DNA of 64,000 nucleotides. Source: Dromaius novaehollandiae. Lineage: Eukaryota; Chordata; Aves; Casuariiformes; Dromaiidae. The DNA lies in NCBI RefSeq assembly GCF_036370855.1, contig NC_088103.1:34203904-34267903 (forward strand), written 5' to 3'. Positions 31,060-64,000 of this stretch are shown here, piece after piece. The notes under the pieces were generated by a model. The model was given only the letters and a program-made list of their open reading frames with translations, did no database searches and was not told where the DNA came from. Both the position numbers and the translations under genes were made by a program. Each line of letters opens with the position of its first letter. The stretch's first letter is position 1.

Positions 31060-32285
31060 ATACTGAGCAAGTAAAACCAGAGAGACTCAGTTCTCCATGC
31101 GGTGTGGGAATCAAGAGGTGTGGAGTTCAACTGTGGGTGTCTATGGACAGCAAGTTTCCTGAGAGTATCGGTGTAGGACCAAACCAAACTGGAAAAAGGA
31201 ATCATCTAAAGGAGAGATCCGAAAAATGCTTGCAGCTTTCTCCAGCTGTTACAAGTTAGCCTAGTCTGTTGATGACTTTGAAGCCAGTTATTTAAATATA
31301 GACTATTTTATAATCAGTTTGAGCATCAGCCCTGCCTGTTCTGCTTTCCTGTGGAAATGGTGCAGTTATGGCCCCTTATTTTTAAGTACAATGGTATCCT
31401 ATAAATTAATTTCTCTCTCTGTCAAATGGCAGAGAAGATTCTTGCCTTTTGCATGAAATTGATGTTTCAAAAGGTTTGTCTGAAGTGCCTTTGTGCTGCC
31501 AGCAGTTGGCAGAAGAACATGGAATCACAGAATGGTTGAGGTTGGAAGGTACCTCTGGAGATCTAGTCTCACCCCCCTGCTCAAAGCAGGGTCAACTACA
31601 GCGGGTTGCCCAACACCATGTCCTGTTGAGTTTTGAGTATCTCTAAGGATGGAGATGCCACAGCCTCTTTGGGCAACCTGCTCCAGTGTTCAGTCACCCT
31701 TACAGTAAAGCTTTTTCTTATGCTTAAACAGAACTTCCTGTGTTTCAGTTTGTGCCCGTTGCTTCTTGTCCTTTGACTGGACACCACTGAAAAGAGCCTG
31801 GCTCTGTCATCTTTACACCCTCCCATCTGGTATTTATACATGTTGATAGGATCCCCCTGAGCCTTCTCTTCTTGAGCCTAAACAGTCCCTCTCTGTGTAT
31901 GTCAGATATTCCAATCATTCAGTCATCTGTGTGGCCCTTTGCTGGACCTACCCCAGTATGTCCATGTCTGTCTTGTACTGGGGACCCCAGCACTGGAACC
32001 AGCAGACCAGGTGTGGCCTCAGCTGTGCTGAGTTAGAGGGGAAGGATCACCTTCCTTAACTTGCTGGCAATGTTCTTCCTAATGCAGCTCGGAGGGGCTG
32101 TTGGCCTTTTTAGCCACAAGGGCACATATCTTTAAAGCCCACAGCATCCAATTATGATGGGTCTCATGAGGTCAGACATCTCCGATAACAAATTGCCAGT
32201 GATGGCTGACAAAAAATAGTGATTTTTTTCAGTAGCGATTGTCTCTTGAGAGAGATCAATAAAGTCAGACAAGAAAGCTTTTTCC
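31060..32285 (+). other. PDCD11: PDCD11 3' UTR and possible poly(A) signal
   Basis: No canonical AATAAA occurs between the stop and the CR1 insertion. The first is AATAAA at 32258-32263, with a second near 32295. If either is used, the CR1 copy at 31.5-32.1 kb is part of the mature 3' UTR. A non-canonical signal nearer the stop cannot be excluded. Confidence 0.4.
31521..32130 (-). mobile_element. CR1 LINE 3' end, about 0.6 kb
   Basis: The plus strand starts with GGAATCACAGAATGGTTGAG, the reverse complement of the CR1 3' terminus, and continues with the usual landmarks: GGTTGGAAGGTACCTCTGG, CTCAAAGCAGGGTCAACTAC, GGGCAACCTGCTCCAGTG, then the decayed end of the second ORF (plus-strand CAGTTTGTGCCCGTTGC, AGGTGTGGCCTCAG). 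It is 5'-truncated, as most CR1 copies are, and antisense to PDCD11. Confidence 0.9.
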
Positions 32286-57160: not shown

Positions 57161-57182
57161 TGGGGCTAACCCTAACCCTACT

Positions 57183-58090
57183 CCTAATGTCAGCCAGAGC
57201 CCGAACCAGAGCCCACCAGCCCCACTGCTGGCCCTAACAAAAAAGTCACCCTGGTGTAAGAGACTATTAGGGACATGCCAGTCATTAATGCCTCAAAAAT
57301 TGTCACAAGAGAAGTTTTTGTAAGCAGGTTCTGCATGGCCATGGCAGGCCATGAAGGAGGCATGTAAAAAAAAGAAAGAAAGAAAGAAAAAGCATGGCAC
57401 AGCGCTGCGCCTGCCCGGGAGAAGCTTCTGGAACCCGGCAGCGCAGCTGGGCAACGCCGGGGGGGGGGGGGGTAGTGCGCCAGGGGGCGCGCAGCCCCGC
57501 TTTCTGATTGGCCCTGACATGGCAACGGCGGGGGCGGAGACCGCCAGACACCCTGAGAAGGCCCTAGGGGGTTTCTGGAAGGTTCTGGGGGGGGTGCGTC
57601 AGAGCTAACTTGCATGGGAAGCAAGGCAGCGCCCTCCTGGGATGCGGCGAGAGCATATAAAAACCTCAGACTCCATGAAGCACCTGTGTGCCGCCACATG
57701 AGGATTGCCACACCTGCGATTGGCACCGTGGGATCCAAGGGTAGTGAGTATCTCTTTATTTTTCACTTCTATTCTCTGTTTCTTCTTCTAAAAATTTCCA
57801 TAGAACCCATCATGGACCATTTACGCTTTACGGGTTCAGGTTGCCTCCAAGTTAATGTTGTTTCTAAGTTCATGGTAATGGTGAAAGCAGGTAACAGATC
57901 CTTTGGTGTCATTTCACCTTAATTTAGCCCAAGAGAATCACGGAACCTGGATCTCCACAACCCTGGGCTGTAACACGTGGGAGCAGTCTTGGTGCAGCCC
58001 CCCATTTCCTTTGGCATGCCCTTTGCAGCCCCACTCCACATGGGGCTCTGCGCTTTCTCTCTCTCCTAACCCTAGCCCTAGCCCTAGCCC
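57183..58090 (+). repeat. Long satellite unit L1 (about 906 bp)
   Basis: Contains the satellite flank (CCAGAGCCC, CCCACCAGCCCCACTGCTGG), then about 0.7 kb absent from short units, then the shared core (GTGGGAGCAGTCTTGGTGCA at about 57977) and a hexamer run. The extra block begins after AAAAAGTCACCCTGGTGTAA, includes A/G-rich and G12 homopolymer tracts (the latter about 57461-57472), and carries the promoter-like layout described separately. The pair L1/L2 is clearly homologous along its whole length. Confidence 0.85.
57421..57752 (+). promoter_or_regulatory. Heat-shock-type promoter and short leader exon in unit L1
   Basis: In order on the plus strand: a perfect heat-shock element GAAGCTTCTGGAA (57421-57433); an inverted CCAAT box ATTGG (57507-57511); a GC box GGGGGCGGA (about 57529-57537); a second perfect heat-shock element TTCTGGAAGGTTC (57573-57585); a TATA box TATAAAA (57656-57662); and, about 85 nt past the TATA box, a strong 5' splice site GTGAGTA (about 57745). 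This is the architecture of an HSF-responsive polymerase II promoter with a short first exon. No protein-coding exon is seen after it. Derivation from a heat-shock or polyubiquitin gene promoter, or from an LTR, is possible but unproven. Confidence 0.6.
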
Positions 58091-59024
58091 TAAGGTCAGC
58101 TGGAGCCCGGAGCAGATCCCACCAACCCCATTGCTGGCCCTAACAAAAAAGTCGCCCTGGTGTAAGAGACTATTAGGGACGTGTCAGTCATTAATGCCTC
58201 AAAAATTGTTGCAAGACAAGTTTTTGTAAGCAAGTTCTGCATGGCCATGGCAGGCCATGAAGGAGGCATGTTAAAAAAAAAAAAAAAGAAAGAAAGAAAG
58301 CATGGCACAGCGCTGCATCCGCCAAGGAGAAGCTTCTGGACCCTGGCAGCCCAGCGCAGCTGAGCAACGCAGGACGGAGTGGGGGGGGGAGTTGCCCCTG
58401 AGAATGCACCGTCCTGCTTTCTGATTGGCCCTGACATGGCAACGGCAGGGGCAGAGACCACCAGAGACCTGGAGAAGCCCCTAGATAGTTTCTGGAAGGT
58501 TCCAGGAGGAGGGAGCGGGGGCTGCTCGTGGGAGATAATTTGCATGAAAAGCGAGGCAGCACCCTCCCAGGGGTGGGGCAGGAGCCTATAAAAATGGCAG
58601 AAGCTGTAAAGCACGTGTGTGCTCACCAACGGGGGGACAGTGACATGTGTGACTGGCACTGTGGGACCAAGAGTGGTGAGTACCTCTTTTTCTATCTTTG
58701 ACTACTTTTCTCTGTTTCTTCTAAAAATTTCTGCATAAACCATTGCCGACCACTTATGCTTTATGGGTTCAGGCTCCCTCCAAGCTAATGCTGTTTATAA
58801 ATTCATGGTAATGATCAAAGCAGGTAACAAATCTGTTGGTGTCATTTGACCTTACTATAGCCTAAGAAAAAATGGAAGCTCGATCTCCACGACCCTGGGT
58901 TGTAAAAACCTGTGAGCGGTCTTGGTGCAGCCCCCCATTTCCTTTGGCATGCCCTTTGCAGCCCCACTCCGCTTGGGGCTCTACGCTTTCTCTCTCTCCT
59001 AACCCTAACCCTAGCCCTAGCCCT
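58091..59024 (+). repeat. Long satellite unit L2 (about 933 bp)
   Basis: Second copy of the long unit, diverged from L1 by many substitutions and small indels. It retains the same order of blocks: flank, AAAAAAGTCGCCCTGGTGTA, poly-A/GAAA tract, GC-rich promoter-like segment, leader, AT-rich tail, then the short-unit core and hexamers. Confidence 0.85.
58329..58686 (+). promoter_or_regulatory. Heat-shock-type promoter in unit L2
   Basis: Same order as L1: a first heat-shock element with a one-base mismatch in its third module (GAAGCTTCTGGAC, 58329-58341); ATTGG (58424-58428); a second, perfect heat-shock element TTCTGGAAGGTTC (58490-58502); an exact octamer ATTTGCAT (58538-58545; only a variant in L1); TATAAAA (58587-58593); and GTGAGTA near 58675. 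Conservation of the key motifs between two otherwise diverged copies suggests the layout is not accidental. Confidence 0.6.
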
Positions 59025-62000
59025 AAGGTCAGCTGGAGCCTATAGCAGAGCCCACGAGCCCCATTGGTTGCCCTACCGAAAAAGTTGCCGTGGGAGCAGT
59101 CTTGGTGCAGCCTCCCATTTCCGTTGGCATGCCCTTTGCAGCCGCACTCCACATGGGGCTCTATGCTTTCTCTCTCTCCTAACCCTAACCCTAGCCCTAG
59201 TCCTAAGCCTAGCCCTAGCCCTGAGGTCAGCTGGAGCCCGGAGCAGAGCCCACCAGCCCCATTGCTGGCCCTACCGAAAAAGTTGCTGTGGGAGCAGTCT
59301 TGGTGCAGCGCCACATTTCCTTTGGCATGCTCTTTGCAGCTGCACTCCACATGGGGCTCTGTGCTTTCTCTCTCTCCTAACCCTAACCCTAACCCTAACC
59401 CTAACCCTAACCATAGCCGTAGTCCTAAGGTTGGCTGGAGTCTGGAGCAGAGCCCACCAGCCCCCTTGGTGGCTCTCACGAAAAAGTTGCCGTGGGAGCA
59501 GTCTTGATGCAGCGCCACATTTCCTTTGGCATGCCCTTTGCAGCCGCACTCCACATGGGGCTCTGCCCTTTCTCTCTCCCCGAACCCTAATCCTAGCCCT
59601 AACTCTAACCCTAGCCCTAGTCCTAAGGTTGTCTGGAGCCTGTAGCAGAGCCCACCAGTCCAGTTGCTGCCTCCACCAAGAAAGTCGCCATGGGAGCAGT
59701 CTTGGTTCAGCCCTGACATTTCGTTTGGTATGCCCTTTGCAGTCCCCCTCCACATGGGGCTCTACGCTTTCCCTCTCTCCTAACCCTAACACTAGCATTA
59801 GCCCTAAGTTCATCTGGAGCCCAGAGCAGAGCCCCCCAGGCCCATTGGTGTCCGTAACAAAGAAGTTGCTGTGGGAGCAGTCTTGGTGCAGCCCTGACAT
59901 TTGCTTTGGCATGCCCTTTGCAGCCCCACTCCACATGGGGCTCTACGCTTTGTCTCTCCCCTAAACCTAGCCCTAACCCTAGCCCTAAGCCTAACCCTAG
60001 CCCTAGTCTTAAGGTTGGCCGGAGCCTGCAGCAGAGCCCACCAGCCCCATTGGTGGCTGAAACGAAAAAGTTGCCGTGGGAGCAGTCTTGGTGCAACCCC
60101 GCATTTCCTTTGGCATGCCCTTTGCAGTCTCACTCCACATGGGGCTCTACGCTTTCTCTCTCCCCTAACCCTAACCCCAGCCCTAACCCTAACCCTAGCC
60201 CTAGCCCTAGTCCTAAGGTTGGCGGGAGCCCATAGCATAGCCCACCAGCCCCATTGGTGGCCCTAACAAAGAAGTTGCCGTGGGAGCAGTCTTTGTGCAG
60301 TGCCACATTTCCTTTGGCATGCCCTTTGCAGCTGCACTCCACATGGGGCTCTGTGCTTTCTCTCTCTCCTAGCCCTAACCCTAACCCTAGCCCTAACCCT
60401 AACCCAATCCCTAGCCCTATCCCAAGTTCAGCCGGTGCCAGGAGCAGATCCCACCAGCCCCATTGTTGGCCCTAACGAAAAAATTGCCCTGAGAGCAGTC
60501 TTGGTGCAGCCCCGCATTTCCTTTGGCCTGCGCTTTGCAGCCGCACTTCACATGTGGCTCTACGCTTTGTCTCTCTCCTAACCCTAACCCTAACCGTAGC
60601 CCTAACCTTAGCCCTAGCCCTAGTCCTAAGGTTGTCTGGAGCCTGTAGCAGAGCCCACCAGTCCAGTTTCTGCCTCCACCAAAAAAGTCGCCGTGGGAGC
60701 AATCTTGGTGCAGCCCCCGATTTCCTTTGGCATGCGCTTTGCTGCCGCACTGCACATGGGGCTCTACGCTTTCTCTCTCTCCTAACCCTAACCCTAACCC
60801 TAGCCCTAACCTTAGCCCTAGCCCTAGTCCAAAGGTTGGCGGGAGCCTGTAGCAGAGCCCACCAGTCCAGGTTCTGCCTCCACCAAAAAAGTTGCCGTGG
60901 GAGCAATCTTGGTGCAGCCCCCGATTTGCTTTGGCATGCCCTTTGCAGCCGCACTCCACATGGGGCTCTACGCTTTCTCTCTCTCCTAACCCTAACCCTA
61001 ACCCTAGCCCTAACCTTAACCCTAACCCTAGTCCCAAGGTTGTCTGAAGCCTGTAGCAGAGCCCACCAGTCCAGTTTCTGCCTCCACCAAAAAAGTCGCC
61101 GTGGGAGCAATCTTGGTGCAGCCCCCGATTTCCTTTGGCATGCCCTTTGCAGCCGCACTCCACATGGGGCTCTACGCTTTCTCTCTCTCCTAACCCTAAC
61201 CCTAGCCCTAGCCCTAAGGTTGGCCGGAGCGTGGAGCAGAGCCCACCAGCCCCATTGCTGACCCTAACAAAGAAGTTGCCCTGGGAGCAGTCTTGGTTCC
61301 GCCCCCCGCATTTGCTTTGGCATGCGCTTTGCAGCCGAACTCCACATTGGGCTCTGCGCTTTCTCTCTCCCCTAACCCTAACCCTAGCCCTAACCCTAAC
61401 CCTAAGCCTAACCCTAGCCCTAGTCCTAAGGTTGGCGGGAGCCCATAGCATAGCCCACCAGCCCCATTGGTGGCTGTAACGAAAAAGTTGCCGTGGGAGC
61501 AGTCTTTGTGCAGCGCCGTATTTCCTTTGTCATACCCTTTGCAGCTGCACTCCACATGGGGCTCTGTGCTTTCTCTCTCTCCTAGCCCTAACCCTAACCC
61601 TAGCCCTAACCCTAACCCAATCCCTAGCCCTATGCCTTAGTTCAGCCGGTGCCAGGAGCAGATCCCACCAGCCCCATTGTTGGCCCTAACGAAAAAGTTG
61701 CCCTGAGAGCAGTCTTGGTGCAGCCCCGCATTTCCTTTGGCCTGCGCTTTGCAGCCGCACTCCACATGGAGCTCTACGCTTTGTCTCTCCCCTAACCCTA
61801 ACCCTAAGCCTAGCCCTAAGCCTAACCCTAACCCTAGTCCTAAGGTTGGCCGGAGCCCGGAGCAGATCCCACCAGCCCCATTGCTGGCCCTACCGAAAAA
61901 GTTGCCGTGGGAGCTGTTTTGGTTCAGCCCTGACATTTCCTTTGGCATGCCCTTTGCAGCCCCACTCCACATGGGGCTCTACGCTTTCTCTCTCTCCTAA

Positions 62001-64000
62001 CCCTAACACTAGCATTAGCCCTAAGTTCATCCGGAGCCCAGAGCAGAGCCCCCCAGGCCCATTGGTGTGCGTAACAAAGACGTTGCTGTGGGAGCAGTCT
62101 TGGTGCAGACCCGCATTTCCTTTGGCATGCCCTTTGCAGTCCCACTCCACATGGGGCTCTACGCTTTGTCTCTCCCCTAACCCTAACCCTAGCCCTAAGC
62201 CTAACCCTAGCCCTAGTCCTAAGGTTGGCCGGAGCCGGTAGCAGAGCCCACCAGTCCAGTTGCTGCCTCGACCAAAAAAGTTGCTGTGGGAGCAATGTTG
62301 GTGCAGCCCCCCATTTCCTTTGGCATGCACTTTGCAGCGCCACTCCATATGGGGCTCTACGCTCTCTCTCTCCCCTAACCCTAAGCCTAGCCCTAAGCCT
62401 AACCCTAGCCCTAGTCCTAAGGTTGGCCGGAGTCTGGAGCAGAGCCCACCAGCCCCATTGGTGGCTCTCACAAAAAAGTTGCCGTGGGAGCAGTCTGTGT
62501 GCAGCCCCCGATTACCTTTGGCATTCCCTTTGCAGACCCACTCCACATGGGGCTCTGCGGTTTGTCTCTCCCCTAACCCTAACCCTAGCCCTAACCCTAA
62601 CCCTAACCCTTACCCTCGCCCTGGTCCTAAGGTTGTCTGGAGCCTGTAGCAGAGCCCACCAGTCCAGTTGCTGCCTCGACCAAAAAAGTTGCCGTGGGAG
62701 CAGTCCTGGTTCAGCCCTGACATTTCGTTTGGCATGCCCTTTGCAGCCCCACTCCACATGGAGCTCTACGCTTTCTCTCTCCCCTAACCCTAACCCTAAG
62801 CCTAGCCCTAAGCCTAACCCTAGCCCTAGTCCTAAGGTTGTCTGCAGCCCTGAACAGAGCCCACCAGCCCCATTGGTGGGTGTAACGAAAAAGTTGCCGT
62901 GGGAGCAGTCTTGGTGCAGCCCCGCATTTCCTTTGGCATGCCCTTTGCAGTCCCACTCCACATGGGGCTCTACGCTTTGTCTCTCCCCTAGCCCTGGCCC
63001 TAACCCTAACCCTAGCCCTAGTCCTAAGGTTGGCCGGAGCCTGCAGCAGAGCCCACCAGTCCAGTTGCTGCCTCGACCAAAAAAGTCGCCGTGGGAGCAA
63101 TGTTGGTGCAGCCCTGACATTTCGTTTGGCATGCCCTTTGCAGCCCCACTCCACATGGGGCTCTACGCTTTCTCTCTCCCCTAACCCTAAGTCTAGCCCT
63201 AACCCTAGCCCTAGCCCTAGTCCTAAGGTTGGCCGGAGCCTGGAGCAGAGCCCACCAGCCCTATTGGTGGCTGTAACGAAAAAGTTGCCGTGGGAGCAGT
63301 CTTGGTGCAGCCCCGCATTTCCTTTGGCATGCTCTTTGCAGTCCCACTCTACATGGGGCTCTACGCTTTGTCTCTCCCCTAGCCCTTGCCCTAACCCTAA
63401 CCCTAGCCCTAGTCCTAAGGTTGGCCGGAGCCTGCAGCAGAGCCCACCAGTCCAGTTGCTGCCTCGACCAAAAAAGTTGCTGTGGGAGCAATGTTGGTGC
63501 AGCCCCCCATTTTCTTTGGCATGCCCTTTGCAGCTGCACTCCAGAATGGGGCTCTACGCTTTCTCTCTCCCCTAACCCTAACCCTAACCCTAACCCTAAC
63601 CCTAGTCCTAAGGTTGCCTGGAGCCTGTAGCAGAGCCCACCAGCCCTATTGGTGGCTCTCACGAAAAAGTTGCCGTGGGAGCAGTCTTGGTGCAGCGCCA
63701 CATTTCCTTTGGCATGCCCTTTGCAGCCCCACTCCACATGGGGCTCTGCGCTTTCTCTCTCCCCGAACCCTAACCCTAGCCCTAACCCTAAACCTAGCCC
63801 TAGTCCTAAGGTTGGCCGGAGCCTGCAGCAGAGCCCACCAGTCCAGTTGCTGCCTCCACCAAAAAAGTCGCCATGGGAGCTGTTTTGGTTCAGCCCTGAC
63901 ATTTCGTTTGGCATGCCCTTTGCAGCGCCACTCCACATGGGGCTCTACGCTTTGTCTCTCTCCTAACCCTAACCCTAACCCTAACCCTAACCCTAGCCCT
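59025..64000 (+). repeat. Short-unit domain of the satellite (about 198 bp period)
   Basis: About 25 tandem units. Each has: a linker (GGAGCCTGCAGCAGAGCCCA, CCAGCCCCATTGGTGGC); the junction AAAAAGTTGCCGTGGGAGCA; the core; then 4-9 hexamers ending CCCTAGTCCTAAGGTTG. Variants recur (for example CCAGTCCAGTTGCTGCCTC versus CCAGCCCCATTGGTGGC linkers), and some blocks are repeated at multiples of the unit length. The frames CTA-ACC and CCT-AAC, and their complements, contain no stops, which explains the long open frames on both strands. Confidence 0.92.

Follow-up and report, generated by a model that had tools for sequence, protein, structure and literature searches.

The promoter-like block that occurs twice at the head of a CCCTAA-bearing satellite in the emu genome is probably a solo long terminal repeat (LTR) of a retroviral family with an HSF-type promoter, inserted once in a satellite unit and later duplicated. 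The evidence comes from the junctions between the block and the satellite, from dispersed copies of the same LTR elsewhere in the genome and from the conservation of its heat-shock elements (HSEs).

Two solo LTRs in an interstitial satellite

The window, as the whole 64,000-nucleotide stretch is called here, corresponds to C6:34203904-34267903 of a 1.47 Gb genome. Near its right end two long units stand among shorter satellite units, and each of them is a satellite unit of about 200 bp split by a solo LTR flanked by a 5-bp target-site duplication (Table 1). At the equivalent place the unbroken short units have GT(T/C)(G/A)C and then, for example, CGTGGGAGC, TGTGGGAGC or CCTGGGAGC; 44.7 kb of sequence contained 207 such unbroken junctions, of which 24 lie in the window. 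The first long unit splits this stretch, so that CCTGG is followed by 721 bp running from TGTAAGAG to CTGTAACA and then by CGTGGGAGC. The arrangement is that of a TG...CA element bordered by a 5-bp target-site duplication.

With 81% identity the two long units are duplicates of one another and therefore count as one observation, not two. Their LTRs are sisters with a support of 0.999, computed among 30 LTR copies after 11 near-identical ones had been left out, which directly implies, as far as the aligned copies tell, a single LTR insertion in the satellite followed by tandem duplication. LTR 1 and LTR 2 differ at 18–19% of sites. Since this compares, at 19%, with only 8% between the two LTRs of a provirus on contig C1 (see below), the satellite duplication is probably older than that provirus.

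Table 1. Features of the two LTR-bearing units and of the array (window positions)
Feature	Position	Strand	Basis or remark
Satellite array, ~180-210-bp units with degenerate CCCTAA/CCCTAG patches	57163..64000, on to ~C6:34320738	+	sequence reading
Left target-site duplication, LTR 1, CCTGG	57250..57254	+	stretch present once in unbroken short units
Solo LTR 1, 721 bp	57255..57975	+	genome search and copies read
HSE1 of LTR 1	57421..57433	+	perfect, GAAnnTTCnnGAA
CCAAT box of LTR 1 (ATTGG on +)	57507..57511	-	in second most conserved 13-base LTR window
HSE2 of LTR 1	57573..57585	+	perfect, TTCnnGAAnnTTC; top conserved LTR window is HSE2 shifted one base
TATA box of LTR 1 (TATAAAA)	57656..57662	+	sequence
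GTGAGT of LTR 1, possible splice donor	57744..57749	+	private to the two satellite LTRs, 2/41 copies
Site of lost polyadenylation signal, LTR 1 (GTGAAA)	57881..57886	+	column is AATAAA in 34/39 dispersed copies
Right target-site duplication, LTR 1, CGTGG	57976..57980	+	4/5 bases as left
Left target-site duplication, LTR 2, CCTGG	58156..58160	+	sequence
Solo LTR 2, 748 bp	58161..58908	+	tandem-duplicated sister of LTR 1; alignment and tree support
HSE1 of LTR 2	58329..58341	+	GAAGCTTCTGGAC, 8/9 core bases
CCAAT box of LTR 2 (ATTGG on +)	58424..58428	-	sequence
HSE2 of LTR 2	58490..58502	+	perfect, TTCTGGAAGGTTC
TATA box of LTR 2 (TATAAAA)	58587..58593	+	sequence
GTGAGT of LTR 2	58676..58681	+	sequence
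Right target-site duplication, LTR 2, CCTGT	58909..58913	+	4/5 bases as left

The promoter motifs described in the original prediction were recovered. Both units carry three-module HSEs, GAAGCTTCTGGAA and TTCTGGAAGGTTC being perfect and GAAGCTTCTGGAC matching at eight of nine core bases, and the HSEs, the CCAAT box (in reverse), the TATA box and GTGAGT follow in the same order in both copies. Judged by its sequence, the block is an RNA polymerase II promoter of the heat-shock type that faces into the array along the CCCTAA strand, and the orientation of the TATA box gives a C-rich (CCCUAA) predicted RNA, as had been proposed, unlike TERRA.

The description of the satellite itself had to be revised. 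The array is about 60 kb long, from ~57163 in the window to ~C6:34320738 (C6 34267700-34307600 and 34318000-34325000 were read, with matches listed across the intervening gap), in place of the roughly 5 kb of hexamer satellite first described. Hexamers are confined to short patches within the ~180–210-bp units, and in the part of the array that was checked the longest uninterrupted stretch of (CCCTAA)n has five copies. Because C6 is 49,993,374 bases long (49.99 Mb) and the array lies at about 34.26–34.3 Mb, the array is interstitial and not telomeric. Among the matches listed the unit was also seen elsewhere on C6, at 25.9–27.9, 31.6, 35.6 and 39.0 Mb, and at least six times off C6 (C7, C8 and C33; best candidates scored). 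On C6 there are several interstitial arrays of the CCCTAA-bearing satellite, and the matches listed there all share one orientation.

The window also encodes RRP5-type S1 domains (PDCD11) and calcium homeostasis modulator exons. Three Ca_hom_mod genes lie in tandem on the minus strand (36.0–52.8 kb), with PDCD11/RRP5 adjoining and the satellite immediately past them; going by order and likeness they were named CALHM2, CALHM1 and CALHM3. Exon 1 of CALHM1 differs at 32 of 183 residues from the best-scoring PDB CALHM1 (8gmq), which we take to be the chicken protein. An open frame on the minus strand (31596-31877) presumably resembles the end of a CR1 LINE reverse transcriptase; the CR1 tail pattern was not above chance in the window, and scans of the window with Rfam (gathering scores) and for tRNAs gave no match. 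Exact-pattern scans of viral contigs with a satellite 19-mer and a promoter 30-mer returned no matches.

A dispersed family of LTRs and its provirus

A search of the same genome with window positions 57300-59050 returned 41 rows on 16 contigs, 22 of which end at query position 676-677, that is, at the satellite junction. Copies of the LTR were read at 39 further loci. TGTAAG or TGCAAG opens 32 of these 39 copies and TAACA closes 26, the remaining ones being truncated, changed or aligned short of the end. Of the 24 copies with complete ends, 12 have flanking 5-bp sequences that agree at four or five positions; for flanks paired across different copies the figure is 3 of 552. This comparison leaves out the 15 of the 39 copies with incomplete ends or in several pieces. 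Among the 12 complete-ended copies without a duplication, four resemble provirus-side LTRs, six are copies on C49 with identical flanks, as if from one duplicated locus, and two (L018 and L042) are unexplained.

On C1 two LTR copies on the same strand start 5.8 kb apart and share the outer flank ACTGT on both sides. The interior of this provirus shows a PBS-like TGG and ends in GGGGTGG ahead of the 3' LTR. A Pfam comparison of 17 short stretches from inside the C1 and C4 copies left 15 without a match; the other two, both within the C1 provirus, matched RNase_H (E 3e-8) and the reverse transcriptase RVT_1 (E 1e-6, 29.1 bits, just under the cut-off of 29.6). Against the PDB the RNase H piece gave weak matches, to cellular-type RNase H chains only. 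This piece (L006 2374-2880, minus strand) stops about 170 bases from the 3' LTR, with no space for an integrase after it, which would point to either an internal deletion or an unusual gene order. Within the LTR, 34 of the 39 dispersed copies have AATAAA about 210–230 bases past the TATA box. AATTTA had also been considered as the LTR polyadenylation signal and was rejected because almost every copy has that stretch; the signal is instead the AATAAA that aligns with position 57881.

Taken together, the LTR ends, the 5-bp duplications, the provirus, the reverse transcriptase and RNase H pieces and AATAAA establish the element as an LTR retrotransposon or endogenous retrovirus. ERVL elements make a 5-bp target-site duplication. 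A stretch TGG(C/T)(T/G)T(C/T)A follows the LTR in three copies and may be a tRNA-Leu primer binding site. The duplication length and this putative primer site suggest a class III (ERVL-type) element.

Several copies fall into groups more than 90% identical on small contigs, with six on C49 (L020, L022, L025-L027, L030), five on C121 (L028, L029, L031, L034, L035) and three on C216 (L014, L015, L017), which looks like local amplification. In addition, loci of 3,023 bases round C33:23496517 (L070) and C35:37168670 (L071) are 99.9% identical, flanks included. Both contigs are large (71.8 and 86.0 Mb), and the pair appears as if homologous, possibly representing little-differentiated sex chromosomes.

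Promoter motifs in the satellite copies and across the family

A closer comparison of the two satellite LTRs showed that HSE1, CCAAT box, HSE2 and TATA box together differ at 2 of 43 bases (P=0.021 against random segments of the same size), and the HSEs alone at 1 of 26 (P=0.064). The retention of the HSEs within the pair is not clearly beyond neutral, and that of the promoter motifs argues at most weakly for constraint at this site. GTGAGT lies just downstream of the expected start site in both satellite LTRs and is present in none of the 39 dispersed copies (2 of 41 overall), so it is not an inherited module of the promoter. AATAAA has been lost at the same hexamer in both satellite LTRs; it is lost as well in five of the 39 dispersed copies, none of which combines this loss with a gain of GTGAGT. 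In the array, AATAAA and ATTAAA are absent from both strands of 44.7 kb and of the last 2.7 kb (47.4 kb in total). For the 44.7 kb an order-2 model expects 2.1 and 1.0 occurrences (minimum 0) and an order-1 model 7.4 and 10.4, which makes the absence not significant under the former and low under the latter.

The kept promoter, the GTGAGT, the lost AATAAA and the AATAAA-free array fit a promoter that could read through into the array, and fit drift too. That the solo LTR was taken over as a stress-inducible promoter of the satellite, with heat acting through HSF to produce a long C-rich (ARIA-like) RNA from the array, appears unlikely. We lean slightly towards the view that the satellite LTRs are wholly dead, that is, relics methylated or otherwise silenced and with no present transcription. 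The divergence of 18–19% between them agrees with this, as do the mismatch in HSE1 of LTR 2, the near-neutral retention of the HSEs and the CpG observed/expected ratio of the LTR 2 promoter part, which at 0.39 equals that of unique DNA in the window (0.39). Against it stands LTR 1, whose TATA box, CCAAT box and both HSEs are intact and whose promoter part has a CpG ratio of 0.61 versus 0.31 in the short units. Old and mostly silent relics would be the most likely description of both.

Conservation of the HSEs in other copies of the block, on which the original prediction had made itself depend, was found. HSE2 is perfect in 38 of 41 LTR copies and in 27 of 29 clusters (90% identity). HSE1 is perfect in 32 of the 41 aligned copies and 21 of the 29 clusters, a count in which one miss, L005, is an alignment artefact, its HSE1 being perfect. 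Scored as mean pairwise identity over the 27 dispersed clusters, the best of 709 windows of 13 columns is 57574-57586 (0.989), which is HSE2 shifted by one base; the HSE2 core ranks third (0.983) against an overall mean of 0.768, and the next separate conserved window contains the CCAAT box (0.949). After removal of CpG-prone columns HSE2 ranks 5 of 446, HSE1 20 of 446 and the CCAAT box 13 of 562. The TATA box does not stand out for conservation, its score being reached by 148 of 714 windows. An X-box/RFX motif adjoining the CCAAT box was dropped as a candidate, with 270 of 710 windows scoring as high and no conservation beyond background.

These figures describe one genome and 41 copies that were found through similarity to the window copy. 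A search with the first 23 bases of the LTR, which hold no HSE, found 40 copies against none for the reversed pattern. Thirty were read, with HSE2 perfect in 23 and HSE1 in 22; in the 14 copies new to the analysis HSE2 is perfect in only nine and HSE1 in eight. Among the seven copies of this sample without a perfect HSE2, L057 and L066 have one mismatch, and in five (L055 and L075-L078) the HSE2 part has no alignment to the window LTR. The conservation of the HSEs and the CCAAT box across the LTR family is shown, and the U3 can be described, by its motifs, as an HSF-type promoter.

This conservation likely arose because transcription of the element depended on HSF binding. The HSEs might then serve HSF2 or other HSFs active in germ cells or embryos and not heat, which we regard as possible, if doubtful. 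A retroviral element needs expression there to be inherited, and the conservation of HSE2 and the CCAAT box suggests that the sites were used, without telling which HSF or which condition was involved.

A dedicated heat-shock promoter made by the host within a telomeric-type satellite unit, as first proposed, is very improbable. The HSEs, the CCAAT box and the TATA box do all point into the array, but the block is found on 16 contigs outside it with LTR ends and 5-bp duplications, and is thus the solo LTR of a dispersed element, inserted once. BLAST with the LTR found no copy in the 40 kb of array beyond the window, nor in the array's last part. A query spanning the LTR-satellite junction gave, among the matches listed, the window as the single joined place; the window's own second copy is absent from those matches. 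Chance matches have next to no probability, short as the HSE modules are, since the three HSEs of the 64 kb with all nine core bases (57421, 57573 and 58490) all fall in the two long units, two in the first and one in the second, where 0.58 would be expected per window and 0.005 per insert length (two arose in 0 of 4000 simulated inserts), and HSE2 lies within the most conserved stretch of the LTR family. The parts of the array read beyond the window (40 kb and the last part) hold no perfect HSE. That the most conserved part of an LTR should contain a perfect three-module HSE is difficult to explain by chance.

Proposed origin and related systems

The solo-LTR origin can be laid out as a series of steps. 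A retroviral element with LTRs of ~720 bp and 5-bp duplications, dispersed in the genome, inserted once into an interstitial CCCTAA-bearing satellite unit. Recombination between its two LTRs left a single LTR, and the enlarged unit was later duplicated in tandem; the sequence shows these steps or directly implies them. By its motifs the U3 is an HSF-type promoter, with a pair of three-module HSEs together with CCAAT and TATA boxes. Transcription of the element would have depended on HSF binding, with heat, proteotoxic stress of another kind or germ-cell HSF activity as the presumed switch. From the two satellite LTRs a C-rich RNA that extends into the array may still be started.

HSF-dependent transcription of the element would have parallels in ONSEN and in the LTR of bovine leukaemia virus. 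ONSEN, an LTR-copia element of Arabidopsis, is reported to carry an nTTCnnGAAn element in the LTR of all copies, with heat activation and HSFA2 binding proven by experiment (PMC3907296). Both families have an HSE in the LTR that is conserved across copies; ONSEN, however, is a plant copia element, whereas the emu element is an animal one with retroviral-type reverse transcriptase and RNase H pieces. In bovine leukaemia virus HSF1 is described as raising transcription through an HSE in the U3 in reporter assays (PMC10236774). There too a retroviral U3 bears an HSE, but the virus is exogenous and has one short HSE, in contrast to the two full three-module HSEs of a dispersed endogenous family. 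HSE-bearing Helitrons of Caenorhabditis, at which occupancy by HSF-1 and polymerase upon heat shock is reported (PMC6927752), likewise form a transposable family that spreads HSEs through the genome; they are DNA transposons with occupancy shown, whereas here the family is one of LTRs and the motifs are read from sequence.

On the side of the satellite, human satellite III RNA is described as HSF1-driven and TERRA as HSF1-dependent (PMC9032817). HSF control of a repeat RNA is the possible likeness, but those repeats are pericentric or telomeric, while the present one is an interstitial satellite with an inserted LTR. The features of a TERRA promoter are not found here, as the site is not subtelomeric (34.3 Mb in a 50-Mb contig) and the TATA box is oriented towards CCCUAA, not UUAGGG. 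ARIA, a C-rich telomeric-repeat RNA reported mainly from interstitial arrays in hamster cells (PMC13403905), agrees in strand and in interstitial origin with the RNA predicted for the satellite LTRs; in hamster the RNA was observed, whereas here the hexamer patches are degenerate and the RNA is predicted. If fired, the satellite LTRs would give the C-rich strand, as in ARIA and not as in TERRA.

The picture of a heat-shock promoter native to a telomeric satellite is replaced by a testable retroviral one, and what is new and of interest is the LTR family with its HSEs. No earlier report of an HSE-bearing bird LTR was found in open-licence PMC papers. An animal retroviral family appears to have an HSF site as the best-kept part of its LTR, like ONSEN in plants. 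If this is true, every intact copy of the LTR would be a portable heat-shock enhancer, and it could be asked whether the family was mobilised by stress and rewired genes in its neighbourhood. The two LTRs in the satellite would offer a natural experiment on whether a repeat array can come to be transcribed under stress through an LTR inserted in it.
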